Assembly: GCF_007997295.1 (NCBI RefSeq)
Contig: NZ_VORY01000002.1
Span: forward strand, 1-64,000
Reading direction: 5' to 3'
From: Gillisia hiemivivida
GTDB lineage: Bacteria; Bacteroidota; Bacteroidia; Flavobacteriales; Flavobacteriaceae
DNA: 64,000 nt
The notes below the pieces were generated by a model. The model ran no database searches. It worked only from the letters and a program-made list of their open reading frames with translations, and had not been told where the DNA came from. A program made the translations under genes and the position numbers. Positions 37,892-54,400 of this stretch are shown piece by piece (within the stretch, counting starts at the first letter, position 1; each line of letters begins with the position of its first letter).

Positions 37892-40800
37892 ATGGCATTA
37901 TTTCAAGCTTCGGTACTTAAATCACATCTCGCACTACTCGATGAAACAGTGATCGAAAAGGCATATAAAAAATATCAAAAATATTTCTGGAATACGACGA
38001 TACAGGAAAATATTAAAAGTGCCAAAGAAGAGCAATATCAAGCGACGTTTCTAAACGAACTATTCGTAAATATTTTAGGCTACACGCTATTTCCAAATCC
38101 TAATTCAAATCTAACCACGGAGTTTAAAAACGAGAAAAATGCCCGCAAAGCAGACGGGGCAATAGTTAAAGATGGTAGCGCTATATGCGTGATTGAATTA
38201 AAGGGCACGAACACTAAAGATCTTGAAAGTATTCGACGCCAAGCCTTTGATTACAAAGCGAACCAAAAAGGTTGCGTATATGTGATTACTTCCAATTTTG
38301 AAAAGCTGCGGTTCTATATCAATGATGCAACTGAGTTTGAAGAATTCGATTTGTTTACGCTTTCACGAAAGCGATTTGATCTTCTTTACCTATGTCTACA
38401 TATAGAAAAGGTTCTCAATAATACACCTCTTAAAATTAAGGAAGCATCTATAGCTGAAGAAGAGCAGATCACTAAAGCATTTTATAAAGATTACTCAAAC
38501 TTTAAGCGTGAGCTGTATCGGGATTTGATAAAAAAGAATTCTAAAACGGTTAAAGAAAAATTAAACATATCTGCAAACAGTGAGAACCAGGAGGATATTG
38601 TTCGACTTGAAAAAAATATAAAACTAACCCTATTCCAAAAGTCTCAAAAGCTAATAGACCGTTTCCTTTTTATCTTCTTTGCTGAAGATAGAATGTTACT
38701 ACCCTCTAATTCTACTCTTCAAATTCTTAACAAATGGAAGGATGATTGGGATTTTGGAGATGAACGACCTCTATACGGACTTTTTAAGCAGTATTTTAAT
38801 TATTTGGACAATGGTCGTAAGGGAACAGAGAAACGTGCTGAAATCTATGCATATAATGGCGGACTGTTTAAACCAGATTCCATTCTTAATGCACTGGAAA
38901 TAGATAATGATCTTTTATATAAATACGCTTTAAAACTATCAAATTACGATTTTGAAAGTCAAGTAGATGTAAATATCCTTGGACACATATTTGAAAACTC
39001 ACTCAACGAAATTGAAAGTGTAAATGCAGAGATTGAAGGTGCAGCTTTTGATAAGCAGACCAGTAAGCGAAAAAAGGATGGTGTTTTTTATACTCCAAAG
39101 TATATTACCAAATATATTGTTGAAAATACGGTAGGCAAATTGTGTAATGAGAAAAAACAGGAATTGGGTTTCGATGAAGAACAATATTTTAAAGGTCGTA
39201 AAAACCGAAGTAAAAATACCATTGAAAACCTGGTAACTATTCTTGATAAATATCGTGAGTGGTTATTACAACTAACAATTTGTGATCCTGCCTGTGGCTC
39301 AGGAGCATTTTTAAATCAAGCACTTGATTTTCTAATTAAAGAACATACTTATATTGACGAACTGAAAACAAAAATTTTAGGCGGTGGATTACAATTTCCG
39401 GATATAGAAAATACCATATTAGAAAATAATATTTATGGGGTTGATCTCAACGAAGAAAGTATAGAAATTGCCAAACTTTCCCTTTGGTTACGTACAGCTC
39501 AGCCACGTCGAAAACTCAACGATTTAAGCAGTAATATCAAATGTGGAAACAGTTTGATCCATGATAAAAAAGTTGCTGGAGACAAAGCATTTATATGGGA
39601 AAATGAATTTCCTGCTGTCTTTATAAAAGGTGGTTTTGATGTAGTGATTGGTAATCCACCTTATGTAGTTTACATCAAATCGATTTTTGGAAAATCTACA
39701 TTAGATTACATAAACAAGAATTATAAGTATTCTGAATATAATCCAAACACATATGCATTATTTACCGATTTAGCTTTAAATACACTTTTAAAGGCAGATG
39801 GTTATTTAGGTTTTATTATTCCTAACAGTTGGATGGATGGTCAATATTTTTCCAATATGAGGAAGGATGTCTACAATACTTTAATCGAAGAAATTGTTTA
39901 TTTAAAGAATACTGCATTTGATGAAGTTGTTGAAACAGTAGTAATACATATTAAAAACAGTGATATAACCCCAAATTCAATAAAACTCACAACAGATATA
40001 AAAGAAAATATTTTTAGTCCTGTAACTTTTGAGAAAGATCGTTTTATCAAAGGCCACAATCCATTTATATACTCTTCAAATCCATTATTAGAAAAATTAG
40101 ATAATGATTTTGAAAAATTGAAAGAACACGGTATTGTATATCGTGGTTTAGAAACAAGAAATAATAAATTATGGCTATCAGAAGAAAAAAAAGATGAAAA
40201 TCATTTACCTATTCTTTTGGGTAGAGATGTGAACAGATATGATATAGAATACACAGGTACTTATGTGAATTTCATCCAAAATGAAATGAAAAGTAATGCA
40301 AATCTTGATATGTATTTGCAACCGAAAATACTTATGCGTCGGACTGGTTCGTCAATTATCGCTACAAAGGATGAAGATAATTTAATGGTACTGAAAAATT
40401 CTTATTTGATCATACCCGATGAGATTTATAAATTAGATCAGTTGTTGGCACAACTCAATTCATCCCTATTCGCCTTTTATCACAAATCAATGACAAGTGC
40501 TGAAAATAAAGCATTTGCCCAATTTAAAGGAACATATATATTAGATTTTCCCGTCAACTTTGATGAAGCAATGGATTTTTCTAATCCTGTTAATAAAGCA
40601 ATTTATTATAATACAAATCTCACAAAATTAAAATCTTATTTCAAAACATATTTCTCTGGTCAATATAGTCTTTTGAAAGTTACAAGAACTCTTGAATATT
40701 GGTATGAGCTTGATTTTACCAAATTTATTAAAGAACTCAACAAAGCAATAAAGGCTACCAATAAATTAAGAGCAAAAGAAAATCTTGCTCCTATCGATAC

Positions 40801-40969
40801 GCTCACCAAAAAAGACGAATTCGAGTGGATGGAACTTTTTGAGGAAAACAAGAAAAAAGCACAAGAACTTCAATGCCAAATTGCTAGCACAGAAAAAGAA
40901 ATAGACCAGATGGTTTTTGAGCTATATGGGCTTTCAGTTGAAGAAATTGCGATTGTTGAAAATAGTTAA
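37892..40969 (+). CDS. Type IIG restriction-modification enzyme (Eco57I-like)
   Basis: 1025 residues. The N-terminal ~200 residues carry a PD-(D/E)XK nuclease core: ARKADGA (Asp88) then VIELKG (Glu102, Lys104). The methylase part has motif I DPACGSGAF (465-473) and motif IV NPPYV (588-592), which marks N6-adenine methylation. A target-recognition and helical C-terminus follows (FAFYHKSMTSAENKAFAQF; long charged helices after 900). The fusion can both methylate and cut, so no separate restriction gene is needed. The stop codon touches the next ATG with no gap, suggesting tight coupling with the DUF4365 protein. Confidence 0.83.
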   Translation: MALFQASVLKSHLALLDETVIEKAYKKYQKYFWNTTIQENIKSAKEEQYQATFLNELFVNILGYTLFPNPNSNLTTEFKNEKNARKADGAIVKDGSAICVIELKGTNTKDLESIRRQAFDYKANQKGCVYVITSNFEKLRFYINDATEFEEFDLFTLSRKRFDLLYLCLHIEKVLNNTPLKIKEASIAEEEQITKAFYKDYSNFKRELYRDLIKKNSKTVKEKLNISANSENQEDIVRLEKNIKLTLFQKSQKLIDRFLFIFFAEDRMLLPSNSTLQILNKWKDDWDFGDERPLYGLFKQYFNYLDNGRKGTEKRAEIYAYNGGLFKPDSILNALEIDNDLLYKYALKLSNYDFESQVDVNILGHIFENSLNEIESVNAEIEGAAFDKQTSKRKKDGVFYTPKYITKYIVENTVGKLCNEKKQELGFDEEQYFKGRKNRSKNTIENLVTILDKYREWLLQLTICDPACGSGAFLNQALDFLIKEHTYIDELKTKILGGGLQFPDIENTILENNIYGVDLNEESIEIAKLSLWLRTAQPRRKLNDLSSNIKCGNSLIHDKKVAGDKAFIWENEFPAVFIKGGFDVVIGNPPYVVYIKSIFGKSTLDYINKNYKYSEYNPNTYALFTDLALNTLLKADGYLGFIIPNSWMDGQYFSNMRKDVYNTLIEEIVYLKNTAFDEVVETVVIHIKNSDITPNSIKLTTDIKENIFSPVTFEKDRFIKGHNPFIYSSNPLLEKLDNDFEKLKEHGIVYRGLETRNNKLWLSEEKKDENHLPILLGRDVNRYDIEYTGTYVNFIQNEMKSNANLDMYLQPKILMRRTGSSIIATKDEDNLMVLKNSYLIIPDEIYKLDQLLAQLNSSLFAFYHKSMTSAENKAFAQFKGTYILDFPVNFDEAMDFSNPVNKAIYYNTNLTKLKSYFKTYFSGQYSLLKVTRTLEYWYELDFTKFIKELNKAIKATNKLRAKENLAPIDTLTKKDEFEWMELFEENKKKAQELQCQIASTEKEIDQMVFELYGLSVEEIAIVENS

Positions 40970-42889
40970 ATGAGAAGTAAAACCCATATTTTAGAAGAGA
41001 AAAGCGTCCACCAATTAAGAAATATCTTTCCAGCTAAATGGGTTATAAGGGAGAAGGGAAGAGATTACGGTATTGATATTGAAGTGGAGATATTTGATGA
41101 TAATGAGCAACCTACAGGATTAGTTTTTTGGATACAATTAAAAGCAACAGATAGTAAATCAAAATCAATAAAAAGGTCAATAAATATGCCTATCAAAAAG
41201 ATCAGGCAACTGGCTAATTATGATTTACCAGTAGCTATATTTAGATATAACGCTGATGACAACCAATACTTCTTTGATTGGATTAAGCGTTTTGCATTTT
41301 TATCGTCCAACTCAAAGAATAAATCTTATACTCTAAAATTTAATGATGCCGAGTGCTGGAATACTGAAAGTTCAGAAAAAATTCATTGTGATTTAAAAAA
41401 TTTATCTCAATACACCAGTAAATCATTTAGCTTTCCCTTAGTAGGTTTCATAAATCACATTTCTGGACCTACAAAGTATAAAAGAATTCTATCCGCCGCG
41501 ATTGGAGAGAAACATTTATTGATAAATTTATCAAGACACAAGTCAACAGCACCACTTGAAATAAATCTGTTAGAAGGACAATTGGTTTTAAATTTAAAAT
41601 CAGCTTTCGGTAGTTCGATAGGCTGGGATGAAAAATTAGAAACTATTGATGAAGATTTTCTTTTAGACGTTTTTCATAAAGCCTTAGTTCTGTTTTTAGC
41701 TAACACCGGAAAACGGAAAGATTTAAGGCAACTAATAAGTGAATACGATTTATTGGATAGTTTTTTAATGCACAGTCCAATTCTAACATATATCCTTCCT
41801 GAATTAATTGCTTGTGATACCGACAATATTTTTCTACCCAAAATAATTGATTCGATTTATTTGTCAGATGATTTGATAAATCAAAGCTTCTTACAAGTAA
41901 TAGTCTTTTTAGGTAATAATAATTTTATAGACAGACCAAAGGTTGAAGAATTTTACAACAGATTAATTTTACTTTGTATAAAGCATAATAATCAAAGCTT
42001 TTTAAGTACGGCATATTATAATTATGGTAGTTATTATAAATCCTACTACATTTTAGACAAAGCTCTTCATTACTATAATAAAGCTAGCAAAACAGATAAT
42101 TCTTATTTGGATCGTTTTTATTTCAAAAGGGAATTAGCTGGTATATTATTTCAAATTGGGAGATATAAATGTAGCGTATCATTATACAAGGAAGCTATAC
42201 CATTAGAAAAGGAAAATATTTTTCTTTTTGCCACTTATGGAGATGCTTTGATGTATTCTGGGGAGTATAAATTAGCTTTTGAATATTTTGACAAATTTCT
42301 CACGGCAAATGATAGGCTTGAGGACAACGAAAAACACGATAAATATGAATTTAACATTAAGTTCACGTTATTACACTTCTTAATAAATATTATTGGTATT
42401 GAACATCAAGTACGAAAAGAATTTGCAGCAAATGAGAAGCTTAAAAGATTAAATGAAAGTGAACTAGGGCAGTTTGACAAAATTTTCGAAGTATTATCTC
42501 TCGATGCTATTTATCCAACAGCTTGGTATTTGTTGACAGAGTATTATTTAAAGAATGATAATCCACAAGGCTATTTTTTAAGCATTCTTTTTCAAGCGGT
42601 TGTTGTTCAAAACAACCCGACAATCTGGGCATTTGTTAGCATTCTATGTACGTATCAAGAAATGGAAAACAATATCCTATTCGATATAGTAAATACAGCA
42701 TTTTTCTACTGTCGCAATGATTTTTTGAAAGCTTTAGATCGTCTGATTAATTTAGAAGATTATAAAGACTTTAAAGGAGAAGAATTTATCTCTATGGTAG
42801 AAAATATTATTCGGGATCCTAAAGAATATCCAATGGAAATGAGATACTGGGATGGAGAGAAACCAAAAATAATCAAGCTATCTAAATAG
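40970..42889 (+). CDS. DUF4365 nuclease-like protein with TPR region
   Basis: 639 residues. Residues ~1-160 are a DUF4365 domain with GRDYGIDIEVE (30-40) and FWIQLKAT (53-60), the Asp...Gln-x-Lys pattern of a variant PD-(D/E)XK fold. Residues ~340-450 carry tetratricopeptide-like repeats (YYILDKALHYYNKASKTDNS; FATYGDALMYSGEYKLAFEYF), and helical repeats continue to the end. Starts on the base after the type IIG stop, and its own stop abuts the next ATG. I infer a partner in phage defence: nuclease fused to a protein- or ligand-binding scaffold. Catalytic activity is unproven and the Gln variant may be inactive. Confidence 0.72.
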   Translation: MRSKTHILEEKSVHQLRNIFPAKWVIREKGRDYGIDIEVEIFDDNEQPTGLVFWIQLKATDSKSKSIKRSINMPIKKIRQLANYDLPVAIFRYNADDNQYFFDWIKRFAFLSSNSKNKSYTLKFNDAECWNTESSEKIHCDLKNLSQYTSKSFSFPLVGFINHISGPTKYKRILSAAIGEKHLLINLSRHKSTAPLEINLLEGQLVLNLKSAFGSSIGWDEKLETIDEDFLLDVFHKALVLFLANTGKRKDLRQLISEYDLLDSFLMHSPILTYILPELIACDTDNIFLPKIIDSIYLSDDLINQSFLQVIVFLGNNNFIDRPKVEEFYNRLILLCIKHNNQSFLSTAYYNYGSYYKSYYILDKALHYYNKASKTDNSYLDRFYFKRELAGILFQIGRYKCSVSLYKEAIPLEKENIFLFATYGDALMYSGEYKLAFEYFDKFLTANDRLEDNEKHDKYEFNIKFTLLHFLINIIGIEHQVRKEFAANEKLKRLNESELGQFDKIFEVLSLDAIYPTAWYLLTEYYLKNDNPQGYFLSILFQAVVVQNNPTIWAFVSILCTYQEMENNILFDIVNTAFFYCRNDFLKALDRLINLEDYKDFKGEEFISMVENIIRDPKEYPMEMRYWDGEKPKIIKLSK

Positions 42890-43477
42890 ATGCAGAGTAA
42901 AAGCGCAAAAATAAAACTGAAAGATCACTGGCCATCAAATTTCTTACCTGATGAAACTCGGGAATTTGAGGAAATAACGGAAAGTTTTCCTACAATGCTG
43001 GCTAAGCTTACAGACAAGTCGAGAGTTATAAGTATTTATAAAAACTTTGGCAAAGAAGGAGTAGGAAAAGTAACTTCTCGTAAATCTTTAAAATCCTTAA
43101 TTCCTCAATTAGAGCAAGAAGAAGATTTTACAGGAGTTTATTTGTTTTGGGTACATGATGAGCCATTTTATACAGGTATCTCACGGGGCGTTATTAAGCG
43201 TATTCATCAACACGTAAAAGGATCAAATCATTTTTCATCTTCTTTGAGTTACACGATGGGTAAAGAATTTCACAATGAGATAGAAAGTATAAAGCATACT
43301 GGTACCAGAAAGGAACTTGATTTTGATAAGTTTTCAGGACCTTTCAAAAAAATATTAAGAAAAGAATGCCAGGTATCACTGCTACCTATAAAAGGTTCAA
43401 CAGAACTCTACCTATTTGAAGTATATGTCGCAGTACAGTTAAAATTGCATTATTACAACAGATTTAAAACACATTGA
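42890..43477 (+). CDS. GIY-YIG-fold nuclease-like protein
   Basis: 195 residues. The core reads GVYLFWVHDEPFYTGIS (82-98) with the Gly-Val-Tyr and Tyr-Thr-Gly elements of the GIY-YIG fold. Arg104 (VIKRIHQH) and a late glutamate (ELYLFEVYVA, ~172-177) fill the catalytic arginine and glutamate places. Residues 1-80 are unassigned. Begins directly after the DUF4365 stop codon. As the third abutting gene it is likely a nuclease arm of the same defence unit. The orientation converges with the STAND gene. Confidence 0.75.
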   Translation: MQSKSAKIKLKDHWPSNFLPDETREFEEITESFPTMLAKLTDKSRVISIYKNFGKEGVGKVTSRKSLKSLIPQLEQEEDFTGVYLFWVHDEPFYTGISRGVIKRIHQHVKGSNHFSSSLSYTMGKEFHNEIESIKHTGTRKELDFDKFSGPFKKILRKECQVSLLPIKGSTELYLFEVYVAVQLKLHYYNRFKTH

Positions 43478-43567: not shown

Positions 43568-46500
43568 TTATAATCCGGTTTCTTCATCCCGAATTTTTTC
43601 CATTTTAATTTCCTTTTCAAAGTGTTCAATTTCCAATGCTGCCCAGGATTGTATATTTTCAAGATGATGATCTTTTAGATCCTTAAGAATAGTTATTCTC
43701 GATTGTAAATAGGGTACGCGGGAACCAGAGGTCATCATAGAATGTAAATTACTTGATAGAATACTCAAAAAATCAGGATCTTTTCCAAACGCGTCTATAA
43801 GTTTTCTTGTCAATGAAAACCAGCCATTAGCATCACCATATAATGGTAAATAGCGCAACATCCATTTGGCTGCTCTAGGGTGGTCAAATAGCCATTTTTC
43901 GAGTTTGTCAAGGTGTTTCTTATTCTTGAAAAAAGGATGAGAATTTTCAGTTCCCGTCACCCAATTCATATCAAAAATCTCTGAAAAAAACAGAGCCTCT
44001 CCTTCTTGAATTAACAGCTCCCCATAGACCGGCCATGCAGCATCCCAATCAGCTACTAAGGAACCATTGGCCACATTAGCTATATGATAACCGCTTCCTT
44101 GGTTCATCCCCCGGTTTTTAAAAGTCTCGGTGATATTGAGGGCCACAAACATTGCTATAGTCTCATCCACCGTTAAAAGATACATCATTAATTCTTCCCA
44201 CTCATAAAGATCTGTAAACTTCGAATTTAATACCAATTCAAGCAGGTTGGAGCGGCTGACAAAGCCTTTTAAATATTCTACCAGTTCGGTATCCTCCATT
44301 AATTCCTCCCTCTGATGATCCTTGATATACCAATAAACAATCTTAATAATTTGTGCTTTTGTTGAGTCATCTCGTTCCTCCATGTTTTGAAAGTATTCAA
44401 TAAGTTCATCGAGCGATAACTTGGCAAGTTCACGACGAGCAAATCGATACATCTCTGGATCTATACCCTCATCGATTAAATCCAAAAGTTGCTTGGCATT
44501 GTGAAGCACCGGAGACATCGTTTGAAAAATTACAAATGCAAAAGCTGATTTCTGATCAATAAATCGATTAAAAATCTTTTGCACTTCAGACTTTTGCAAG
44601 CTGTTCAAATACCCCGTTAGAAAAGCTGTATTCCAAGAGGCTGTTATTTCATCACCTATCAGAAAATCCTCGATAGCGGTTAGTAATTTCTGGTCATATC
44701 CGTGGACATCCCCATAGGATTCTCCAAATTCTAGCCCCTGGTACTGGGTTCCTGTCATTAAATTTTTCAAATAGGGCACAAGCGAGATTCTCTCTTGATG
44801 AATCTCTTTTGCAAATTCATTCGTTTTAATTTTCTGCTCCTTATGATCCTCTCCTCGATTATATGCATAAGGTTCGGAAACTATTTGCGCAATTTTATCA
44901 GGAATAGTTTGTGGTGCCAGTACACCGATCAAATCTGTGACCAGTGTCTTAAGGGAGTTAGAAGAGCTTGGGGAATGTAGATTTATATTTAATGAGCCTA
45001 AAATTTCCTTTTTTTCAATTGAATCCGCGACGATATTTTCAAGACTCGGCCGTAACTGAGTAATATCATATCCTAATTGGTCCAAATCGTTTAAACTATC
45101 GACAAGTGCCTTCTGACTAATATGTTTTAATACTAGATCGGTCGAGTCTAAAAAGGCTTTTAAAATATTCAATAACTCATCGATATAGAGATATACATCT
45201 TCTATAGTTTCAGGTTGATAATCTTGCAAAGGTGCCGACCCGCCCTCATCTTCTGCACCAATCATTCGATGATTTATTGTTTTATTTAAGGCTGAAGAAC
45301 AGGTTTCCAGCGTTAATTTATAGTAATCAAAATCTTTTTTTCTTAAAGCCCATTTTAAAACTGGAATGCGATCCTTATAGGCTACCTGGGTTCCAGCTAG
45401 CTGAAAGCTAAAGAGCTGTTTGAAGTAACTTGTCGCATTGTTACTATAGAAGAATTCATTTTCGGCAACTGCAAAGGACATCAATACTCTTGCGGCATCA
45501 TAAAACACAGCCTTTCTGAAACAAAGTCGCTCAAGAGCCCAAATCAGGTTTTGTCTACCTTCATTCACAGACTCTAGGTAGGTTTTGGACTTATCCAGAT
45601 AATGTTTAACCATGGTTTTAGTAGTCGCTTCTGGATTCACAATAACAACAGAGCGGAAAAGATGTGAACCCATTCTAGAATTTAAAAGTTCCGCAGTTGA
45701 AAAATTTCCGTTATAACCCCATAATTTACCTACTAAGGTTTTGGCATGTTGGGCGCCTTTCAATTTTTGCAACTGCTCTGCGATCGGAATTTGATATGAT
45801 TTTGGGATAGAATTTATAAAATCCTCTCCTCCAGAAAGACTAGTTTCCTCCCAAAAAATAATAGCCAATTTCAATGCTAATGCATTGGGTCTGATCATAA
45901 TTTTATTTCCTCGCCGCTCAATATTCCGACGTAATAAAAATTTTTTGATTGTCTTTTCAATATGTTCTCTGGATATTTTGAAAAAAGTTGATATAAATTC
46001 AACCCCTTCCAGTAGCTGATCATACCGAGATCGATCTATTTCAAATAATTCAATTCCTGGATATTCAAACACTTTAAAAATGGCTAGGATCTTAAGAATC
46101 CTGAATTCCTCCTCAACCATCTCATTCCGACCAAAAAGTAGTTTTTTGATCAGATCAATATCCACCATTTCATGAAGATTCTGATCCAGGATCGTAGCAT
46201 TGGCAAAATCAATGGCCATTTTCATATTTCCTTCAGAGAAATCGATAAGGTAACGAATAGCCCCATCGGTAAGTATGCCATGATATTTTTCTGTTAATAT
46301 CTGCTCGGTAATTGATTTATAAAACTCATCTTTTAGTTCGATTTTGGAAACCGTATTACAATATCGTTTAGAGAGTTGATCAAAGTCTAGAGTTACTATT
46401 TTTAGTTGACTATCATTACGATCACATTCTGCCTGAAATTTAACATGTAAATCAGGAGAGCAATTATCCAATACTAGAATAGCCTGAAGATTCTGAGCAT

Positions 46501-47359
46501 GACTCCTTACATAATTTAAAACTTCATTAGCATTTTCGGAAATATCAAAATAGACCATTTGTTCAGAAATGGCTTTACGCATTAGGTCAAAAGATCCATT
46601 TTTCAATTCTCCTGGATTGAATACCTCGTTGATTAACCGGGTTTTACCGATTCCTGACGCCCCTTCAATACGCACATGCTTCCCCTCATATATTATTTTA
46701 CGTAAGTTCTGAATGATTAAATTAATTTCATCGTTGGACTTGAACTCCTCATGAGGATATGAATTTAATTCTTCGTAGGTAAATAGACCTAAAGGCTTGG
46801 TTTGATGTGTGCATTTTTGGACATAAGATACCGCTGCAATATATTGATTAGTCCAGTCTCGGATCAGATTGGCATCAAAAATTTCTAACTTTGCCTCCTC
46901 AGCATAATTATCAGCATCATCCTTAGATAATCCTTCATTTATTTTTCCTTCTATAATTCCTTGGCGTAAAGCTGCTATTCTTGGGATGATATCATTAGGG
47001 ACTAATAAATCATTCGTGAAGAGGACATAAATCCCTTTTTTGTCAAGAATTTCGCGAACCCGAGGTTTAAGGACTTTCTTTTTATTAAGAACTTCATTTT
47101 TGCATTTGTTAACCTCCATTTTAGCGGCCTTACTCTGAATTAAGGTATCAGTATTTTTAATCCATTGAGAGTTTTTGGGATCGGTTGTTTGCAATCGACC
47201 ATCTTCACCACCGTCTGCCCTGTTAATATTTTCCGGAACGCTTATATAAATATTTGGAAAGTCATATCTCAAATGCTCATTGTATAATAATTTCAATAAC
47301 AGATGGGGTAGCTGAGAGGCATCCAGTTGTTTGATTTGTTCGGCTGTGACGGTATTCAT
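43568..47359 (-). CDS. STAND-type NTPase with N-terminal nuclease-like domain (Avs-like)
   Basis: 1263 residues. Residues ~1-190 carry GGEDGR (50-55) and LIQSKA (73-78), a PD-(D/E)XK-like Asp...Gln-x-Lys pattern of restriction-type nucleases. Residues ~210-450 are a P-loop NTPase with Walker A GASGIGKT (233-240) and a Walker B-like AILVLDN (293-299). Residues ~450-1263 are a long helical, repeat-like region without recognised motif, suited to target recognition. No signal or membrane segment. This plan (effector, NTPase, sensor) is that of STAND defence proteins such as Avs, which recognise a phage protein, oligomerise and unleash the nuclease. Whether it belongs to a named Avs type cannot be decided here. 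Convergent with the type IIG operon. Confidence 0.72.
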   Translation of the reverse strand: MNTVTAEQIKQLDASQLPHLLLKLLYNEHLRYDFPNIYISVPENINRADGGEDGRLQTTDPKNSQWIKNTDTLIQSKAAKMEVNKCKNEVLNKKKVLKPRVREILDKKGIYVLFTNDLLVPNDIIPRIAALRQGIIEGKINEGLSKDDADNYAEEAKLEIFDANLIRDWTNQYIAAVSYVQKCTHQTKPLGLFTYEELNSYPHEEFKSNDEINLIIQNLRKIIYEGKHVRIEGASGIGKTRLINEVFNPGELKNGSFDLMRKAISEQMVYFDISENANEVLNYVRSHAQNLQAILVLDNCSPDLHVKFQAECDRNDSQLKIVTLDFDQLSKRYCNTVSKIELKDEFYKSITEQILTEKYHGILTDGAIRYLIDFSEGNMKMAIDFANATILDQNLHEMVDIDLIKKLLFGRNEMVEEEFRILKILAIFKVFEYPGIELFEIDRSRYDQLLEGVEFISTFFKISREHIEKTIKKFLLRRNIERRGNKIMIRPNALALKLAIIFWEETSLSGGEDFINSIPKSYQIPIAEQLQKLKGAQHAKTLVGKLWGYNGNFSTAELLNSRMGSHLFRSVVIVNPEATTKTMVKHYLDKSKTYLESVNEGRQNLIWALERLCFRKAVFYDAARVLMSFAVAENEFFYSNNATSYFKQLFSFQLAGTQVAYKDRIPVLKWALRKKDFDYYKLTLETCSSALNKTINHRMIGAEDEGGSAPLQDYQPETIEDVYLYIDELLNILKAFLDSTDLVLKHISQKALVDSLNDLDQLGYDITQLRPSLENIVADSIEKKEILGSLNINLHSPSSSNSLKTLVTDLIGVLAPQTIPDKIAQIVSEPYAYNRGEDHKEQKIKTNEFAKEIHQERISLVPYLKNLMTGTQYQGLEFGESYGDVHGYDQKLLTAIEDFLIGDEITASWNTAFLTGYLNSLQKSEVQKIFNRFIDQKSAFAFVIFQTMSPVLHNAKQLLDLIDEGIDPEMYRFARRELAKLSLDELIEYFQNMEERDDSTKAQIIKIVYWYIKDHQREELMEDTELVEYLKGFVSRSNLLELVLNSKFTDLYEWEELMMYLLTVDETIAMFVALNITETFKNRGMNQGSGYHIANVANGSLVADWDAAWPVYGELLIQEGEALFFSEIFDMNWVTGTENSHPFFKNKKHLDKLEKWLFDHPRAAKWMLRYLPLYGDANGWFSLTRKLIDAFGKDPDFLSILSSNLHSMMTSGSRVPYLQSRITILKDLKDHHLENIQSWAALEIEHFEKEIKMEKIRDEETGL

Positions 47360-48068: not shown

Positions 48069-48923
48069 CTAATTAGGGTTATTGATAAAACGCTGTTTAA
48101 CTTTCAGTTTCAAATCGCGTTCGCCATTTTTTTCGTTGAGATCTAATACTACCTCTTTATCAGCAGCAATGGAAAATTTTGGCATTACATAAATAAATCT
48201 GGCAGATTGACCTTCCTTGATTATCCCGGGCATTTGATATTTCAGGGATGGCTCTTGAACCAGTTTTTGCATAGATTTTCTTTTTCCTTTCTTCGTGGTT
48301 TGAACCGACAATTCCAGGAAGCTCACTTCATAATCTATAGTAGATCTATTTTGAATTTCCAGCACAAAAAACAGATGCTCCTTATCGAATACAATGTTTT
48401 CTACTCTTAGAATGATATCATTTTTTCGCTTTTTAATACTTCCAATACCTTGCTTCTTCCCAATTAAATAAGAACAAAATTTTCTGAAATAATTTTTATT
48501 TGAAACGGATATACTCTTATCTGAATCATCCTTTAAACCTAGGTCATTCCTGAGGTCTTTAATCCCGTCAGAAGCCGGAAAAACATTGCCTATACTATTG
48601 GTTTCAGCAATAAAATAATTCAGTTTTTTAAGATCTTCGGAATACTTTACAATATACGAAAAAATAGCTCCTGAATCACTGATAACCAGCAAATTACTTT
48701 CCTTTCCGGGTGTTGCCTGAAGCAATCCGAAATGTTGTTCTTTCTCCCTATTATAGGTGAAAACAAAATTTTCTGAACCTGTAATCCCCTGCTGAATAGG
48801 AGAAGGAAAAAACAAGGCTACATTCTTTTGGTCATTAGCGTAAATGGTGTCAAGCTTTATACTCTGGCTGCATAATTTCAACGAGAACAGAACCATGAAT
48901 ATTATTAAAATTGAATTTTTCAT
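48069..48923 (-). CDS. traN: Conjugative transposon protein TraN (DUF4138)
   Basis: 284 residues with a signal peptide. It has the TraN-type opening IKLDTIYANDQKNVALFFPS and the beta-rich C-terminal KFSIAADKEVVLDLNE. TraN is the VirB9-like outer-membrane-associated component of Bacteroidota type IV secretion. Follows TraM by 30 bp on the same strand. Confidence 0.78.
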   Translation of the reverse strand: MKNSILIIFMVLFSLKLCSQSIKLDTIYANDQKNVALFFPSPIQQGITGSENFVFTYNREKEQHFGLLQATPGKESNLLVISDSGAIFSYIVKYSEDLKKLNYFIAETNSIGNVFPASDGIKDLRNDLGLKDDSDKSISVSNKNYFRKFCSYLIGKKQGIGSIKKRKNDIILRVENIVFDKEHLFFVLEIQNRSTIDYEVSFLELSVQTTKKGKRKSMQKLVQEPSLKYQMPGIIKEGQSARFIYVMPKFSIAADKEVVLDLNEKNGERDLKLKVKQRFINNPN

Positions 48924-48953
48924 TTTTTTAAAATTTTAGTGTTTTTAGAAGTT

Positions 48954-49886
48954 TTAATTAGCCTGCTTTAAAATAAGCTTGTAGTTATTGGTAATGGTCA
49001 CTTTGATATTTTTGTTATTTCTCTGAAAAATCTTTTTGATCCCTCCAACCTGCGGTACTCCCGCAATATTAATATCATCTACCACATCGCCAATTACCTC
49101 CCTAGTGGCATCGGCACGGAAGCTATTTTCCACATAAATTCCCTCACTGCCATCCTGAAGATCGTAAGCTTTCAGTTTTACAGGGTGCTGATTGATATTC
49201 TCCATTTCGATGATCGCACGATTAGGCTGAAAGCGAATAAACCCGTAAATAAGAGTGTTCTTTTTAATAGCAACCCCATCGATTTCTGCCTCTTTGATCA
49301 ATCTCATACGCAATCGGCTATTCACCATAACCACTTGCTCCCCATCCACTTTTGCATAAATAGATTCTTCAGTTTTCAGTGCGGTGATTGCGGCAGTATT
49401 CTTCAGCGGATTTGAACTAAAAAACAACTGATGTTCCAGGCCAATTTCCTTGTTGGCAATCTTATTTTCTTTATTCAGAATAAAAGAGGTATCTGCAATT
49501 ACTTCAGAATAATTGGCCTTTTCAGCTTCACTATTCCTGTAGCGGTTTTCAGTATAATTAATCCGTCCGGAATTATAGATGCTGTCCACAATCCGCTCTT
49601 TTTCCTTTTCCCTTAAATCTGGATCATAGAAACCAAGCGAATCTATCAGCTTTTCATCATAGATGCTTGGCGCATTGGTTTCCCTTACCTCCTTGAGAGC
49701 ATTGACCGCGTCCAGTTTCGATTTGTATTCCTTCTGATCCTGTTTCAGTTCAGGAACTTCAGTTTGTTCGAGGGTTTCAGATTCATCATCCCCATCTCCC
49801 ATCACAAGAACAGAATATGAAATGATGAATATGAGGATCAATGCCAGCACACTCCCGAATACGATTTTGTTTTTCTCAATTTTCAT
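48954..49886 (-). CDS. traM: Conjugative transposon protein TraM (VirB10-like)
   Basis: 310 residues. An N-terminal membrane helix (IVFGSVLALILIFIISYSVLV, ~7-29) and a charged, Glu-rich linker are followed by a C-terminal beta domain (RLRMRLIKEAEIDGVAIKK; LIYGFIRFQPNRAIIEM), the layout of VirB10-like TraM. It spans the envelope as the core-complex scaffold. Its start overlaps the traK stop by 11 bp, so no traL gene lies between them. Confidence 0.83.
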   Translation of the reverse strand: MKIEKNKIVFGSVLALILIFIISYSVLVMGDGDDESETLEQTEVPELKQDQKEYKSKLDAVNALKEVRETNAPSIYDEKLIDSLGFYDPDLREKEKERIVDSIYNSGRINYTENRYRNSEAEKANYSEVIADTSFILNKENKIANKEIGLEHQLFFSSNPLKNTAAITALKTEESIYAKVDGEQVVMVNSRLRMRLIKEAEIDGVAIKKNTLIYGFIRFQPNRAIIEMENINQHPVKLKAYDLQDGSEGIYVENSFRADATREVIGDVVDDINIAGVPQVGGIKKIFQRNNKNIKVTITNNYKLILKQAN

Positions 49887-50490
49887 TAGTTATCTTTTTT
49901 AAAGTGTTTTCAAAATAATTTGTTATCAGCAGTCCGTGGGTATTATTTGGGAAGTTCCTATCAACTTTAATCAGGTTTCCGGTGGAAACCAGTTCATAGG
50001 TATCGACAATAGAACCCCTATTGATTTCAAAAACTGTGGTAGTCCTGAATTGGTTAGGTTGCACCTCAAGATCTACTTCAGATTCTATGCTTAGGACATT
50101 CTGTACCAAAGAATACTGAAGCAAACGGTTATAAACTCCATCTGCCTTTTTCTGCCGGTATAAATTATCTACCGAGCTATTGCCAAGCCATAGTGCTTTT
50201 TCCAGGTTGCGTTCATAATTGCTCGCATCGATATCATAAAAATAGCTGTGGAATAATTCCAGATGCGCTAATGCTTCCACCTTGAGATTTTCTTTCTGGC
50301 TCACCCATTTTAACGGAATTACAGCACCGTCCGAGTTTATGGCAAAGGCATTATTTAAGGCCTCCTTATTTATTTGAAAAACAATCCATGCAGAAATCGA
50401 GGTGGAGAAAAATGCCATCAGAACAACGCTAATCACTACAAACCGATTGATTTTAAGTACCGAGTAAATATTTTTATAAGGTGTTTCCAT
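49876..50490 (-). CDS. traK: Conjugative transposon protein TraK (VirB8-like)
   Basis: 204 residues with one N-terminal membrane helix (INRFVVISVVLMAFFSTSISA, ~14-34) and a periplasmic NTF2-like domain (LAHLELFHSYFYDIDASNYER; FRTTTVFEINRGSIVDTYELVS), as in VirB8-family TraK. It should nucleate assembly of the channel. Follows traJ by 21 bp. Confidence 0.83.
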   Translation of the reverse strand: METPYKNIYSVLKINRFVVISVVLMAFFSTSISAWIVFQINKEALNNAFAINSDGAVIPLKWVSQKENLKVEALAHLELFHSYFYDIDASNYERNLEKALWLGNSSVDNLYRQKKADGVYNRLLQYSLVQNVLSIESEVDLEVQPNQFRTTTVFEINRGSIVDTYELVSTGNLIKVDRNFPNNTHGLLITNYFENTLKKITNEN

Positions 50491-50511
50491 TTCTAAATTA
50501 TTAATCTTCTT

Positions 50512-51354
50512 TTAGGATGTAAAGAGTTTAAGGGTGAATGAAGTTGCACGGGTATAAAGCTTGAATTTTAGAAATACGATAAAAGCAATAGACCCGGCTT
50601 CCACAATGATTCTTATAATGCTGTTATCTGTTGATGACCCCAGAAGGTTGGACCAAAAATTGGCGTTGATCTCTGAATAAAGCGTATTCACGAAAATGTT
50701 CACCAGGAAAAATGCCGGAACAAGCATATAAATCCCCGCATACAACCTAAAAAAATTATAGGCCATCGTGCGGAATTTTTCAAATACCGCTAGGCTGATC
50801 ACCAAAGGAAAAAAAGCCTGCATGATCCCCAGCAAAAAATACCGTTCCGCTAAAAACAACGGGTAGATAAAAAGATCCACAACCCATAAAAACAGACCCA
50901 GAACAAAAGAGATAACCTTTACCGGGTATAATGGCGTTACCAGGGCTTCATATAATAAGGCCATCGCTTTCTTAGCAGCTTCCAGCGCACCTACGTCCTG
51001 TTCAATATCTATATCCTGAAGTTGGAGAGGGATGAGCGCGGGTGCCGTACCCCGATAATTCGATTCTATGGCCACCAGGATCGCGTCAAAAAACCCAAGC
51101 ACCTGGGTGGAAAAAATAACCAGCAGAACAATCGCAAAGTTTTTCGCCAGTTCCCCGGGACTCAATCCCCAGGTATACCCAGAATTTTCAGCAATACCTT
51201 CGTTGTATTTTTTCAGGATATTCACCAGGAAAAATAGTACACCAAGGCTTTTCATCCCCGCAATGGTATATTGGGAGAAATCACTGCTTTTTATGGTTTG
51301 AAAAACAGCATCCACATATTCGAGTCCAATTCCTAAAAAAATACCTGCAGTCAT
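50512..51354 (-). CDS. traJ: Conjugative transposon protein TraJ (VirB6-like)
   Basis: 280 residues with at least six membrane segments (IAGMKSLGVLFFLVNILKKY; LAKNFAIVLLVIFSTQVLG; VISFVLGLFLWVVDLFIYPL; YAGIYMLVPAFFLVNIFV). It has the length and layout of VirB6-type TraJ, the inner-membrane channel part that passes DNA. It ends 21 bp before traK and starts 3 bp after traI. Confidence 0.82.
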   Translation of the reverse strand: MTAGIFLGIGLEYVDAVFQTIKSSDFSQYTIAGMKSLGVLFFLVNILKKYNEGIAENSGYTWGLSPGELAKNFAIVLLVIFSTQVLGFFDAILVAIESNYRGTAPALIPLQLQDIDIEQDVGALEAAKKAMALLYEALVTPLYPVKVISFVLGLFLWVVDLFIYPLFLAERYFLLGIMQAFFPLVISLAVFEKFRTMAYNFFRLYAGIYMLVPAFFLVNIFVNTLYSEINANFWSNLLGSSTDNSIIRIIVEAGSIAFIVFLKFKLYTRATSFTLKLFTS

Positions 51355-51357
51355 GGG

Positions 51358-51990
51358 TTAGAAATTTGTTTCCCTGTTATTGATCTTGTCCTGCATTTCC
51401 CTGAATGAGATTATATCCTGATACCTTTGAATCTTCTGATTGATCTCTGCTACCATCTCTTTCGAGCTCAATTCTTTTTCTTTAAGAATAACCGCTCTTT
51501 CCGCATCCGTCATTTTTAAATAGTTACTGGAAAGCACCTCATCAATAAAATCGAGGTCTTCAAGGGAATTGTTGATGATGGCATTGAACGATTCAGAGAT
51601 TCGGGAAACCTCTTCCGTTTTGATATACGGAGAGTTGAGAATTTTCCGAAGGTCATCACGTACCACATTGAAAAGTCGCTGATTATTTTCAGCGATCTCC
51701 CGCACAGCTTTCAACTGCTTGATAACACTGTTTACTTTTTCCAGATTTTCCTTCTGTTGTTTTAGAAATTCTACCGTTTTAAGCAATTGCGAAGTCTGTT
51801 TCGCAGATTCTATCAGCGATTTAGCCAAGCTTATAAAATTCGTATTATCATAAACCGGCATTCCCTGGGCCGTAGCACGGCCAGGCATTAATAAGACAAT
51901 GGTTATTAAGACTAAAAAGGTCTTGATTTTAGTTTTGCTCACGACACTCTTAATGTTTAAGTATTCGTGAATTTTCTTTGAAATTTTCAT
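51358..51990 (-). CDS. traI: Conjugative transposon protein TraI (DUF4141, VirB5-like)
   Basis: 210 residues from the ATG at 51990, chosen because it lies one base past the traG stop and opens a signal sequence (TFLVLITIVLLMPGRATAQ); a longer frame to 52053 would overlap traG by 62 bp. The mature part is a long helical coiled region (LKTVEFLKQQKENLEKVNSV), as in VirB5-like TraI, a periplasmic pilus-tip or assembly factor. The CTnDOT name is used; it is not a relaxase. Confidence 0.75.
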   Translation of the reverse strand: MKISKKIHEYLNIKSVVSKTKIKTFLVLITIVLLMPGRATAQGMPVYDNTNFISLAKSLIESAKQTSQLLKTVEFLKQQKENLEKVNSVIKQLKAVREIAENNQRLFNVVRDDLRKILNSPYIKTEEVSRISESFNAIINNSLEDLDFIDEVLSSNYLKMTDAERAVILKEKELSSKEMVAEINQKIQRYQDIISFREMQDKINNRETNF

Positions 51991-51991
51991 A

Positions 51992-54400
51992 CTACTTGTT
52001 TTTTGGGTTACTAAATTCTGTGATTGCTTTTTCCATATTTTGATGCTTTTCATAAAGCGCCATTATTTCTTCATTTTCGGCACCATCAGTCAGGTAGGCA
52101 GCATAAACTTCTTTCGGAACTTCCAGGCGGAACACATTGCTCTGCTTTCCTATCTTGATAAATATTTCGGTGTATTTTCTTTGGCCGGAAAGGTTGTTTT
52201 TTATCGATTTAAGCTGGTTTAAATCATGGCTAGAGAGGTTAAGCCGTTTCTTCAGCTCATCATATCCTTTTTCATTATGAAGGCTGTAGATCACCTGAGT
52301 GTTCTCCAAGATGCTTGCTGAAACAGAATTATTTGGTAGTTGGTTTATAGACTGAAGGATAATTCCAATAGCTCCATTCTGTTTCCGGATTGCCTGATAG
52401 TAGAACTCTACACTTTCCAATACATTCTCGAACTTCAGCTGCTTGGCGAACTCATCAAAAAGGATGATCCCCTTCTCTGCCCTGTTTTTCCAGATGGTAC
52501 GCTGAATGGCAGATTTTATCAATTTCAGCATAACAGAAAGGATCTCTTTATTATCCTTTACTTCATCCAGTTCAAAAACAATCAGCCGTTTATCTTCAAT
52601 TTTATAAGTCTGATCTTCCCCTGCTTCAAAAAGAAAGCTGTAAAGACCATCTCCCACATATTCTGACATGATGTGCAGGAAATTTTGAATGTTGAAATAA
52701 TCTGGATGGATACTTAGATCTTTAAGCAGAGTTTTCTGGTTGTTTTCTATAAACCGATAAAAACTCTCCAGTGAATGCTGCCTTGGCACAGTCTGATAAT
52801 AATGAAGCAGAATCTTTTTTGCTGAAACCGACTGACTTCGGCTAATTTTTACATCTGATGCAAAGAGTTCGAAAACAAATACCGATAGATCTTCTAGCCT
52901 CTCCGGGCTCAGATCGTCCAGACTACTGATATAAAAAGGATTTATTCCCAGATTTTTACCGCTCTCATAACGCAGGATGGTGTATTGGCCGGGATATAAT
53001 TTGGCAAATTTGGTATAGGAACCACCAAGGTCGATGATTACCAGACGCACTCCGGCTTCAAAATACTGGCGAAGGATGTTATTGGCCAGGAAAGACTTCC
53101 CTTCACCCGTGGGCGCGAAAATGGCAAAGTTCCTTGCTTTAATCCGGTTTTTCTTCTCATCCCAAACGTCTTTAAGCACAGGAATATTAAACTCCCGGTC
53201 ATTGAAAATAACACCTGTGGAATCAGATTTATAGTTGGTATTATTGATGAACAGGCAGAGTGCATGTTTAAGATCGGTTACATACAGGTCTTCATTTGAA
53301 AAGTTTGGGGAAAAGCAGAAAAAGCTATTCAGAAAATAATTCTTACGCTCTTCCCCACCCGGAGAGTAAGGAATGATATCCAGTTCCTTGAATTCGGTCT
53401 TTATCCTGGAAGCTATCTTTTGGAGCTCTTTAGATTCCGCAGACCAATAAATTACATTTAATTGTCCGCGGATGATCCTTGAGCTGTCATCAGCATTTAT
53501 CTGTTCCAGAATATGCTGGATCTTTTTGAGTACTACTTTGTTCTGCGATCCAAAATTGGAGCTTTTACTAAGTTCTTCAATTTTCTTATCCAGAAGCTTG
53601 CGCCATTTCTGTTTATCATCCAAATAAATTAGCTGGTTTACAATATGGTTTTCATTTAAAGTCAGCCCAAGACCATCAACAAATCCCTGGTGAAACTTGA
53701 AATCATCTGAAGTAAAATGCTCATTAATCTTACTGCTTTGAACGTTTTCTCCAAAACAGAGTTCGCTATTCACAGCCAGAACATCAAAGTAATTTTCCCC
53801 AATATGAATGTGGGATTTATCTAACAGAATATCAGTATCAAAATCCTGATTAAACCCGTTGAAATAAGTGTTACAGATTTCATTGATTTCTTCGGAAGGA
53901 AGAGGTAAAAGTTGAAGCTTACGGCTATTATTTATATAGGAAACCGAATCGCTTACAGCTCCAATAAAACTATGGACGTTCTCATCCAACTGCTGAGAGA
54001 TCTGCTTTGAGATATTTCGGAAAGGATTTACAAATTTCGAATTATTTAAAGTCCTGTTTCTGGTCAGGATAAAAAACAGGTAACAATCGTGCTGGATAAA
54101 ATCACGTCCCCTAAAATGTTGATAGGTAGCTTTTTCAAGAAAAGTGCTATTGGGTAAGTCAGCCGCGGAATATTTCAGTTTTTGATAGACATCCTGTTTA
54201 TGAACGATGCAACCAACAGGCAAAGACTTTAGAGCCTGAAACCAGGTAGTATGTAAATCCTCAAAATCCTTTTCAGATAAAGAATAGATCTCCGGTAATT
54301 TGATTTCATAGCAAAGGGCCACATTACCATTTCCGGCAAATACAATATTCTCCTGAATATTGGCTATTGGTGGATGAGATGCCAGATTAATCCTGCTCAT
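51992..54400 (-). CDS. traG: Conjugation ATPase TraG (VirB4-like)
   Basis: 802 residues. A family N-terminal region (~1-400) is followed by a P-loop NTPase with Walker A APTGEGKSFL (near 427) and Walker B IILFDEFAKQL (near 642), and the ILQSINQL segment after it. This is VirB4-like TraG, the main secretion ATPase at the inner membrane, distinct from the coupling protein at 25-27 kb. Overlaps traF by 14 bp. Confidence 0.9.
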   Translation of the reverse strand: MSRINLASHPPIANIQENIVFAGNGNVALCYEIKLPEIYSLSEKDFEDLHTTWFQALKSLPVGCIVHKQDVYQKLKYSAADLPNSTFLEKATYQHFRGRDFIQHDCYLFFILTRNRTLNNSKFVNPFRNISKQISQQLDENVHSFIGAVSDSVSYINNSRKLQLLPLPSEEINEICNTYFNGFNQDFDTDILLDKSHIHIGENYFDVLAVNSELCFGENVQSSKINEHFTSDDFKFHQGFVDGLGLTLNENHIVNQLIYLDDKQKWRKLLDKKIEELSKSSNFGSQNKVVLKKIQHILEQINADDSSRIIRGQLNVIYWSAESKELQKIASRIKTEFKELDIIPYSPGGEERKNYFLNSFFCFSPNFSNEDLYVTDLKHALCLFINNTNYKSDSTGVIFNDREFNIPVLKDVWDEKKNRIKARNFAIFAPTGEGKSFLANNILRQYFEAGVRLVIIDLGGSYTKFAKLYPGQYTILRYESGKNLGINPFYISSLDDLSPERLEDLSVFVFELFASDVKISRSQSVSAKKILLHYYQTVPRQHSLESFYRFIENNQKTLLKDLSIHPDYFNIQNFLHIMSEYVGDGLYSFLFEAGEDQTYKIEDKRLIVFELDEVKDNKEILSVMLKLIKSAIQRTIWKNRAEKGIILFDEFAKQLKFENVLESVEFYYQAIRKQNGAIGIILQSINQLPNNSVSASILENTQVIYSLHNEKGYDELKKRLNLSSHDLNQLKSIKNNLSGQRKYTEIFIKIGKQSNVFRLEVPKEVYAAYLTDGAENEEIMALYEKHQNMEKAITEFSNPKNK

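Follow-up and report, generated by a model that had tools for sequence, protein, structure and literature searches.

Restriction-modification (R-M) loci of types I and III contain toxin-like genes which have undergone repeated displacement, as described in the portions available of the work of Makarova et al. 2012 (PMC3506569). A 2025 review, likewise available in part (PMC12707154), takes up this coupling of R-M to suicide and cites PrrC and PARIS as examples of guardians. Type IIG enzymes as heads of such operons are not named in the available portions of these two papers. The present work deals with a three-gene operon at positions 37892-43477 of a 64,000-nucleotide stretch of Gillisia hiemivivida DNA (Flavobacteriaceae; assembly GCF_007997295.1, contig NZ_VORY01000002.1, positions 1 to 64,000 of the forward strand), this whole stretch being called the window. 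Its genes encode, in this order, a type IIG R-M enzyme, a fusion of a DUF4365 nuclease with TPR repeats, and a nuclease of GIY-YIG type. With a probability of roughly 0.62 the locus is read here as a self-sufficient type IIG enzyme heading an operon with an exchangeable defence tail, that is, as a layered arrangement in general.

With the coupling of immunity and suicide known from PrrC and EcoprrI the locus shares effector-type nuclease genes in or beside an R-M operon, with one effector displacing another. It differs in that a single type IIG gene forms the head, the coupling having been described for types I and III in the portions available of PMC3506569, and in that the tails behind the type IIG family include sets which are known as whole systems. 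No description of type IIG-headed operons with exchangeable tails was recognised in a literature search of incomplete coverage, which is a weak sign of novelty. The type IIG version of the coupling of R-M to effectors looks new, while the coupling itself is known for types I and III.

Organization of the operon

The features of the operon, all on the plus strand, are the following.

37892..40969, plus strand, type IIG R-M enzyme of 1025 amino acids (PD-(D/E)XK-type nuclease motif, N6-adenine methyltransferase, TaqI-like target recognition domain)
38153..38203, plus strand, residues D88...E102-x-K104 of the type IIG enzyme, which we take to be its nuclease motif (all three invariant in 54/54 aligned proteins)
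39284..39304, plus strand, methyltransferase motif I DPACGSG, residues 465-471 of the type IIG enzyme (invariant in 54/54)
39653..39664, plus strand, methyltransferase motif IV NPPY, residues 588-591 of the type IIG enzyme (NPP in 54/54; last place Y in 50, W in 4)
39689..40711, plus strand, variable target recognition region, about residues 600-940 of the type IIG enzyme, with conserved flanks on both sides (block identities; GC 0.281)
40970..42889, plus strand, protein of 639 amino acids, DUF4365 nuclease with fused TPR repeats (Pfam, alignment, profile search)
40994..41386, plus strand, DUF4365 (PD-(D/E)XK-like) nuclease domain, residues 9-139 (Pfam 6.1e-20; six-protein alignment)
41987..42330, plus strand, TPR repeat region, approximate (six-protein profile against TPR proteins of the PDB, profile positions about 352-456)
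42890..43477, plus strand, GIY-YIG nuclease of 195 amino acids, domain residues 82-195 (Pfam, family alignment, predicted fold)

The three open reading frames (ORFs) lie in a common reading frame, and at both junctions the stop codon directly adjoins the next start codon (TAA|ATG at 40967-40972, TAG|ATG at 42887-42892). The abutting junctions reported in the initial annotation are exact by the ORF coordinates, and its operon layout is borne out by the order, strand and junctions of the ORFs. It had also concluded that these junctions imply strict co-translation, which does not follow from them; close spacing is common in the loci compared. Among 54 loci with relatives of the type IIG enzyme a gap of exactly 0 was found in 1/43 pairs of the type IIG gene and its next gene versus 6/341 other same-strand pairs; gaps of 0-3 bp occurred in 6/39 pairs after the type IIG gene versus 29/345 pairs elsewhere, and gaps of at most 60 bp in 28/39 versus 179/345, the totals differing (43/341 and 39/345) because the two counts identified the type IIG gene by somewhat different criteria. 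When ORFs of 100 amino acids or more are considered, the window contains 36 same-strand pairs, and of these only the two operon junctions have a gap of 0. A double exact abutment is uncommon, while close spacing by itself is ordinary, and spacing was rejected as a sign of translational coupling because the gaps are not special against background pairs. Co-transcription of the three genes is likely. When the operon was scanned for promoters and terminators, the counts were 42 against 30.0 in shuffled sequences (standard deviation 7.1) and 4 against 2.4 (standard deviation 1.5), a modest excess from which no usable promoter or terminator signal was obtained.

The type IIG enzyme

The first protein matches the Eco57I N6-methyltransferase (4.2e-40), the TaqI_C specificity domain (3.6e-23) and the PADLOC type IIG model PDLC03609 (1e-252). 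Nuclease, methyltransferase and specificity domain are thus contained in one polypeptide, as is characteristic of type IIG, and the enzyme of the window is intact as judged from its sequence. This fusion of three functions is shared with the Eco57I-like enzymes of the PDLC03609 type, from which the locus differs by partner genes abutting downstream and by a recognition region which varies across genera between conserved flanks. The methyltransferase region is also related to PglX/BrxX of BREX (NCBIfam 3.3e-36; PDB BrxX 5.3e-8). Membership in BREX was rejected, as the PglX/BrxX score of 124.6 remains below the cut-off of 500 and no brx or further BREX gene was found among the scanned neighbours.

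The 54 aligned proteins include that of the window. When the latter is compared to the other 53, residues 1-640 are 57-88% identical, and beyond residue 690 identity is only 17-38%. In the ten relatives for which block identities are shown, values of 70-98% for residues 501-550 and 63-77% for residues 551-600 are followed by 5-50%, mostly 10-35%, for residues 601-900 and 28-48% for residues 901-950; the last 75 residues are again 60-84% identical in nine of these ten, with 46 and 80% in the tenth. As identity drops at about residue 600 and recovers in the last 75 residues, the recognition region differs between conserved flanks. This region also has the lowest GC content (0.281) among the operon parts compared. 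Across genera the 54 type IIG loci likewise vary at about residues 600-930, between the conserved core and the C-terminal end.

Gillisia hiemivivida carries a second type IIG gene (G000:C10:15330-17360, locus L066; G and L numbers denote genomes and loci of this study), the core of which is 88% and the recognition region 36% identical to the window copy. On the DNA level the two genes agree by 86.8% over 1783 bases at the gene start and by 75% over 281 bases at the end, and the recognition regions between these similar ends are unrelated. With such homologous flanks recombination between the two copies could occur. Behind the second gene a 107-amino acid AbiD-like ORF starts at 150 bp and adjoins an ORF of 177 amino acids. 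In five other loci (L073, L076, L115, L117, L120) a short gene of helix-turn-helix type ends 0-10 bp before the type IIG start, recognised by PADLOC matches to control proteins in L076 and L117 and by eye in L073, L115 and L120; the window has none.

The two tail nucleases

In the DUF4365-TPR protein the residues E9, D36, E38, Q56, and K58 are invariant in all six aligned proteins. Pfam finds TPR only at residues 421-447 and below its cut-off, and the repeats are supported by the profile search against solved TPR proteins. Q56-x-K58 corresponds to Q62/K64 of TmuRE, a DUF4365-APAZ protein in complex with Argonaute which has a Q-x-K site and degrades DNA nonspecifically once activated, according to the portions available of PMC10810196. 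Common to the protein of the window and to this SPARDA, or DUF4365-APAZ short-Argonaute, nuclease is the DUF4365 domain with its Q-x-K catalytic pair, and the low-confidence structural model of the DUF4365-TPR protein also matches the chains 9jt2_B and 9vx6_T. It differs from SPARDA in having TPR repeats in place of APAZ, and no Argonaute gene was found beside it. Neither Pfam (eight proteins) nor PADLOC (five proteins) gave a match to APAZ or short Argonaute in the operon and the scanned neighbours, and a PADLOC match of the DUF4365-TPR protein to an Argonaute-associated nuclease spans the DUF4365 part only. Because APAZ and Argonaute are missing, assignment of the protein to SPARDA was rejected.

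The Pfam match of the third protein to GIY-YIG is weak and sub-threshold (7.7e-4, 20.2 bits compared to a curated cut-off of 22.6), and a PDB sequence search with the profile of the family yielded 0 chains at an E value of 1. Support for the assignment comes from the alignment of the family and from the predicted fold. Common to all ten aligned members are Y84, Y94, G96, R104, H108, E177, and N190 and a C-terminal F-x-TH. The predicted fold, with a mean predicted local distance difference test (pLDDT) score of 81, matches the GIY-YIG domain of UvrC with a probability of 1.00 (best E 0.014) and, more weakly, R.Eco29kI (E 0.15) and R.Hpy188I (E 0.16). The catalytic set Y, Y, R-x3-H, E, N equals that of R.Eco29kI in kind and order, as given in the portions available of PMC1952068, the correspondence being one of motif order and not of superposition. 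Catalytic residues in kind and order as well as the fold are shared with R.Eco29kI, R.Hpy188I, and UvrC, and the protein of the window differs by belonging to a subfamily of its own with an N-terminal extension and the conserved F-x-TH C-terminus. The domain calls of the initial annotation, which had recognised a fused restriction-methylase, a variant PD-(D/E)XK nuclease joined to TPR repeats and a GIY-YIG protein with places for a catalytic arginine and glutamate, stand with all catalytic places intact.

Occurrence of the trio and of its parts

With the DUF4365-TPR protein as query 14 of 299 genomes of the family matched at 1e-3, the own genome included; full-length relatives besides the own one were found only in G075 (40%) and G173 (30%). 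In a sample of the order 2/395 genomes matched at 1e-15, namely the own one and G656 (31%). No relative of the type IIG or GIY-YIG protein lies near the gene in the stretches fetched from G075 and G656, and G075, which is absent from the respective family-genome matches, has neither of them anywhere. In G173 a type IIG gene lies on another contig, and none was found on the 5.8 kb contig with the DUF4365-TPR gene. On three plasmids and two viral contigs neither partner stands beside the DUF4365-TPR gene in the stretches examined; the two viral relatives, the only ones obtained in the viral-contig scan, are both located near contig ends. A viral-contig scan with the GIY-YIG family gave no relative. 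A viral origin was considered and rejected on the outcome of these two scans. On a Vibrio plasmid (L064:8986-16493) a pair of type III R-M methylase and endonuclease genes is located about 0.7 kb downstream of the DUF4365-TPR gene on the same strand, and in G075:C8 (L027) the orphan gene stands in a series of single genes which share a strand, are not related to each other and lie far apart, resembling a gene-cassette array.

The GIY-YIG query matched 8/299 genomes of the family at 1e-3 (own included; three are weak partial matches in larger proteins) and 4/296 genomes of the order at 1e-10 (own included). The weak matches L006-L008 (E 3e-4 to 8e-4, within proteins of 454-461 amino acids) were left out of the context count. 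A scan of the GTDB species collection gave nine GIY-YIG loci, one with an intact type IIG gene and a DUF3800 middle and one with a type IIG remnant. The initial annotation had proposed a strict three-gene system, and a search for the trio in other genomes speaks against it: the trio was found only here, with none elsewhere in the 299 family and 395 order genomes searched with the DUF4365-TPR query or in the nine GTDB loci, and the DUF4365-TPR gene also occurs without its partners. As the GTDB species scan used two peptide patterns only, absence of the trio elsewhere is not proven. A conserved trio in the sense of a named system was rejected because the same three genes do not stand together in the independent genomes searched.

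What recurs is the arrangement of a type IIG gene, a variable middle and the GIY-YIG gene. In Arenibacter certesii (L079) the order is type IIG, 2 bp, DUF3800, 47 bp, DUF3800, 7 bp, GIY-YIG. The type IIG protein is 77% identical to that of the window over residues 1-652 and the GIY-YIG protein 81%, and on the DNA level similarity is confined to the GIY-YIG gene and to the two ends of the type IIG gene (first 1.8 kb, last 245 bases), with none between. The second DUF3800 gene of Arenibacter (L079:8971-9990) has an in-frame stop near the N-terminus when compared to its G254 relative, and the listed ORF starts at an internal methionine. In Mesonia oceanica (L080) the GIY-YIG protein is 85% identical to that of the window. 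No intact type IIG gene is present in the fetched stretch. A remnant of the C-terminus is found at L080:8726-8964, comprising residues 946-982 and 983-1025 (the last 80) in two frames with 62% and 77% identity (E 9e-21). It ends 5 bp before a 194-amino acid gene for a small probable membrane protein, which in turn is located 410 bp before the GIY-YIG gene. To judge from this remnant, the tail has outlived its head in Mesonia oceanica. The arrangement is thus found in independent genera, intact in the window and Arenibacter and with a type IIG remnant in Mesonia, and from these layouts the three genera share the head and the last gene, while no two of them have the same middle.

The GIY-YIG gene is not confined to type IIG operons. 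In G254 a DUF3800 gene precedes it (76-78% identity), and before both stand genes for an MmeI-type methylase and a helicase-like protein. Between this DUF3800 protein and the second one of Arenibacter identity is 83%, so that a pair of DUF3800 and GIY-YIG genes (83% and 78%) stands both behind a type IIG gene and behind an MmeI-type set. Distant members precede hsdR in type I R-M operons at seven loci (L010, L011, L012, L083, L084, L086, L157), where hsdS and the GIY-YIG gene are separated by one to four further ORFs; the type I genes rest on Pfam for HsdM and HsdR in L010 and L011, HsdM in L012 and HsdS in L011, the remaining ones being called by similarity to L011 and other hsdS genes by eye. 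The type I operon of L011 further contains an 827-amino acid gene with matches to specificity, N6-methyltransferase, histidine-kinase-like ATPase, and HARE-HTH domains, and genes which by eye are response-regulator-like. In all, the GIY-YIG gene lies within an R-M operon at 10/19 distinct loci read (window, L079, L009 and the seven type I loci) and behind a type IIG remnant in L080. Of the eight others, L081, L158, L159 and the plasmids L059-L062 have no recognised R-M gene beside it, and in L085 a nearby gene on the opposite strand weakly resembles HsdM (29%).

Exchangeable tails behind type IIG relatives

The 54 type IIG loci read correspond to 53 of 66 matched places outside the window plus L079. 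The 13 unfetched places (8/45 of one scan and 5/21 new in another) include several which are split, contain stops, are partial or lie at contig ends. A same-strand ORF of at least 60 amino acids follows within 60 bp downstream of the type IIG gene in 32/54 loci, and one precedes it within 60 bp in 11/54. Of 71 tail ORFs, 69 were scanned, covering the first four of each locus. Among the matches listed there are DUF3800 (four), TIR (three), the DRT-associated YodC type (three), McrBC, GmrSD, and Shedu (two each) and single matches to patatin, CD-NTase (SMODS), SIR2, HerA, Mrr, and AAA_13. Tails identified by the per-protein scan are listed here.

L111, patatin and CD-NTase (CBASS)
L141, SIR2 and HerA
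L074, two TIR proteins (ThsB, Thoeris-type)
L133, GmrSD
L071, Shedu
L079, two DUF3800 proteins
L067, DRT-associated gene
L112, NsnA / PD-T4-2-like gene
L114, Mrr

In L070, L110, L115, L116, L134, and L139 tail members were putatively assigned by sequence clustering. When these are counted and DUF3800 is not, a named defence type is present in the tail of 14/54 loci. L074 and L076, with cores 94% and recognition regions 76% identical, share no tail gene. Small proteins of two families, by eye with two transmembrane-like segments, were also seen: one occurs behind the type IIG gene in L073 and L117 and before the GIY-YIG gene of Mesonia (L080), with 48-50% identity, the other in L074 and L116 as part of their TIR tails.

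Genomic setting

Outside the operon the following features were recognised downstream.

43568..47359, minus strand, convergent neighbour of 1263 amino acids, related to PD-Lambda-4 protein A (PADLOC PDLC03991, 1.9e-43, residues 4-730)
48069..54400, minus strand, conjugative-transposon transfer genes DUF4138, TraM, and TraG-type ATPase (Pfam)

The DUF4138 gene is presumably of TraN type, and three ORFs between TraM and TraG have no Pfam match. Upstream of the operon efflux, sodium/hydrogen exchanger, and PALP genes are found. The conjugative element with its Tra module is probably the carrier of the operon.

Interpretation

The direct basis for reading the locus as a type IIG head with an exchangeable tail is formed by the gene layout, the domains and their catalytic residues, the recurrence of type IIG and GIY-YIG genes around a variable middle, the occurrence of the parts without each other and the exchange of tails. 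A layered system had already been put forward in the initial annotation, and this idea gains support from the operon layout and from three nuclease-type domains with intact catalytic places. The type IIG enzyme would mark self DNA and cut unmarked DNA unaided. The tail nucleases would act as a second layer when restriction is bypassed or fails, probably in an abortive manner. In this layer the DUF4365-TPR protein may be an autonomous, normally silent and largely sequence-independent nuclease with a TPR part which restrains it or senses infection. The GIY-YIG protein would be an R-M-associated DNA-cutting partner, repeatedly attached to R-M operons and probably not tied to one recognition sequence, as it follows type IIG enzymes with unrelated recognition regions and other R-M types. 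Anti-phage function, an abortive mode, triggering and physical or regulatory contact with the type IIG enzyme are what we infer.

Several observations weigh against this reading. The putative function of the tail is deduced from sequences, and the predicted structure of the DUF4365-TPR protein is of low confidence (mean pLDDT 57) and usable at the domain level only. The arrangement of type IIG, middle, and GIY-YIG genes comprises three genera only, one of them with a mere type IIG remnant. In 22/54 type IIG loci, two of which (L123, L149) run into contig ends, no ORF follows within 60 bp, so that the enzyme can do without a tail. The remark in the initial annotation that type IIG enzymes normally work alone has to be qualified for this family in view of the 32 relatives with a close downstream ORF. 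Two of these 32 ORFs are short and possibly spurious (93 amino acids in L072, 72 in L126). Upstream neighbours match defence families as well (AbiEi, SoFic, PDC-S01, others), and the location of R-M genes in defence islands may alone explain the tail pattern. In favour of the reading, the 52 nearest downstream genes matched 96 PADLOC families at 1e-10 and the 54 nearest upstream genes 31, genes of either strand being taken on both sides and these being counts of families and not of proteins, with one Shedu protein alone matching 13 models and PDC-S01 and AbiEi several upstream. In a systematic sample of ten loci 3/10 downstream genes and 4/10 upstream genes (the latter to helix-turn-helix, homing-endonuclease, and candidate families) matched at 1e-5, and at 1e-20 the same sample gave 3 downstream versus 0 upstream. 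Owing to this inflation of family counts and the ten-locus sample, an enrichment of defence genes behind the type IIG gene is plausible from these matches and not proven.

Among the alternatives mere co-residence survives best and is a possibility to be taken seriously, if a minor one. According to it independent defence genes are stacked in an island or mobile element under a common promoter with no functional link. This agrees with the DUF4365-TPR gene standing without type IIG or GIY-YIG genes in the stretches of G075, G656, three plasmids and two viral contigs, with the GIY-YIG gene lacking a recognised adjoining R-M gene in L081, L158, L159, and four plasmids, with the type IIG genes which have no close downstream ORF, with the ordinary spacing and with the persistence of the Mesonia tail next to a type IIG remnant. 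Mere stacking is at odds with the excess of defence families downstream over upstream, with the presence of the GIY-YIG gene in R-M operons at 10 of 19 loci and behind the remnant in one more, and with the recurrence of the DUF3800-GIY pair behind a type IIG gene and an MmeI-type methylase-helicase set.

A bolder and doubtful view would make the type IIG family a universal trigger hub, the core of which would detect an infection, or an inhibition of itself, and license any effector that the tail happens to contain. Bacteria would then re-arm one sensor by independent swaps of recognition region and tail, and the DUF4365-TPR and GIY-YIG proteins would be one among many interchangeable warheads.

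It is rather improbable that the type IIG protein or its modification state acts as a guard which silences the tail nucleases and releases them when a phage inhibits or escapes the enzyme, in the manner of PrrC and EcoprrI. Precedent exists for type I and III R-M in the portions available of PMC3506569 and PMC12707154. The tail genes are indeed encoded within or directly behind the R-M operon, and effector-type tails are exchanged behind one conserved head. On the other hand a contact region or trigger was not identified, the parts also occur without a type IIG gene, the Mesonia tail has apparently outlived its own, and the patatin and CD-NTase set of L111 and the SIR2-HerA set of L141 belong to kinds which act without an R-M partner.

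Hardly credible, finally, and compatible with the other readings, is an Eco29kI-like role of the GIY-YIG protein, by which it would restrict DNA at sites of its own in addition to the type IIG enzyme, with type IIG methylation protecting against it: the catalytic set agrees with that of R.Eco29kI (PMC1952068, portions available) and is invariant in 10/10 members, and the fold matches include Eco29kI and Hpy188I, but the closest match is the UvrC domain, with E 0.014 compared to just 0.15 for Eco29kI, and one subfamily follows type IIG enzymes with unrelated recognition regions (32% identity between window and L079) as well as an MmeI-type system, so that an enzyme matched to one methylation site is hardly possible.

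Significance

If the reading of a self-sufficient type IIG enzyme with an exchangeable defence tail is true, a one-gene head with tails ranging from lone nucleases to CBASS, McrBC, and SIR2-HerA would constitute a compact natural platform. On this platform one could ask if a functional link exists between R-M and abortive defence or if the two are just inherited together, as one head with many tails would permit simple swaps. The position directly behind the type IIG gene may also serve as a search handle, by which DUF3800 and two families of 235 and 107 amino acids, each seen twice, become candidates for unrecognised defence genes.

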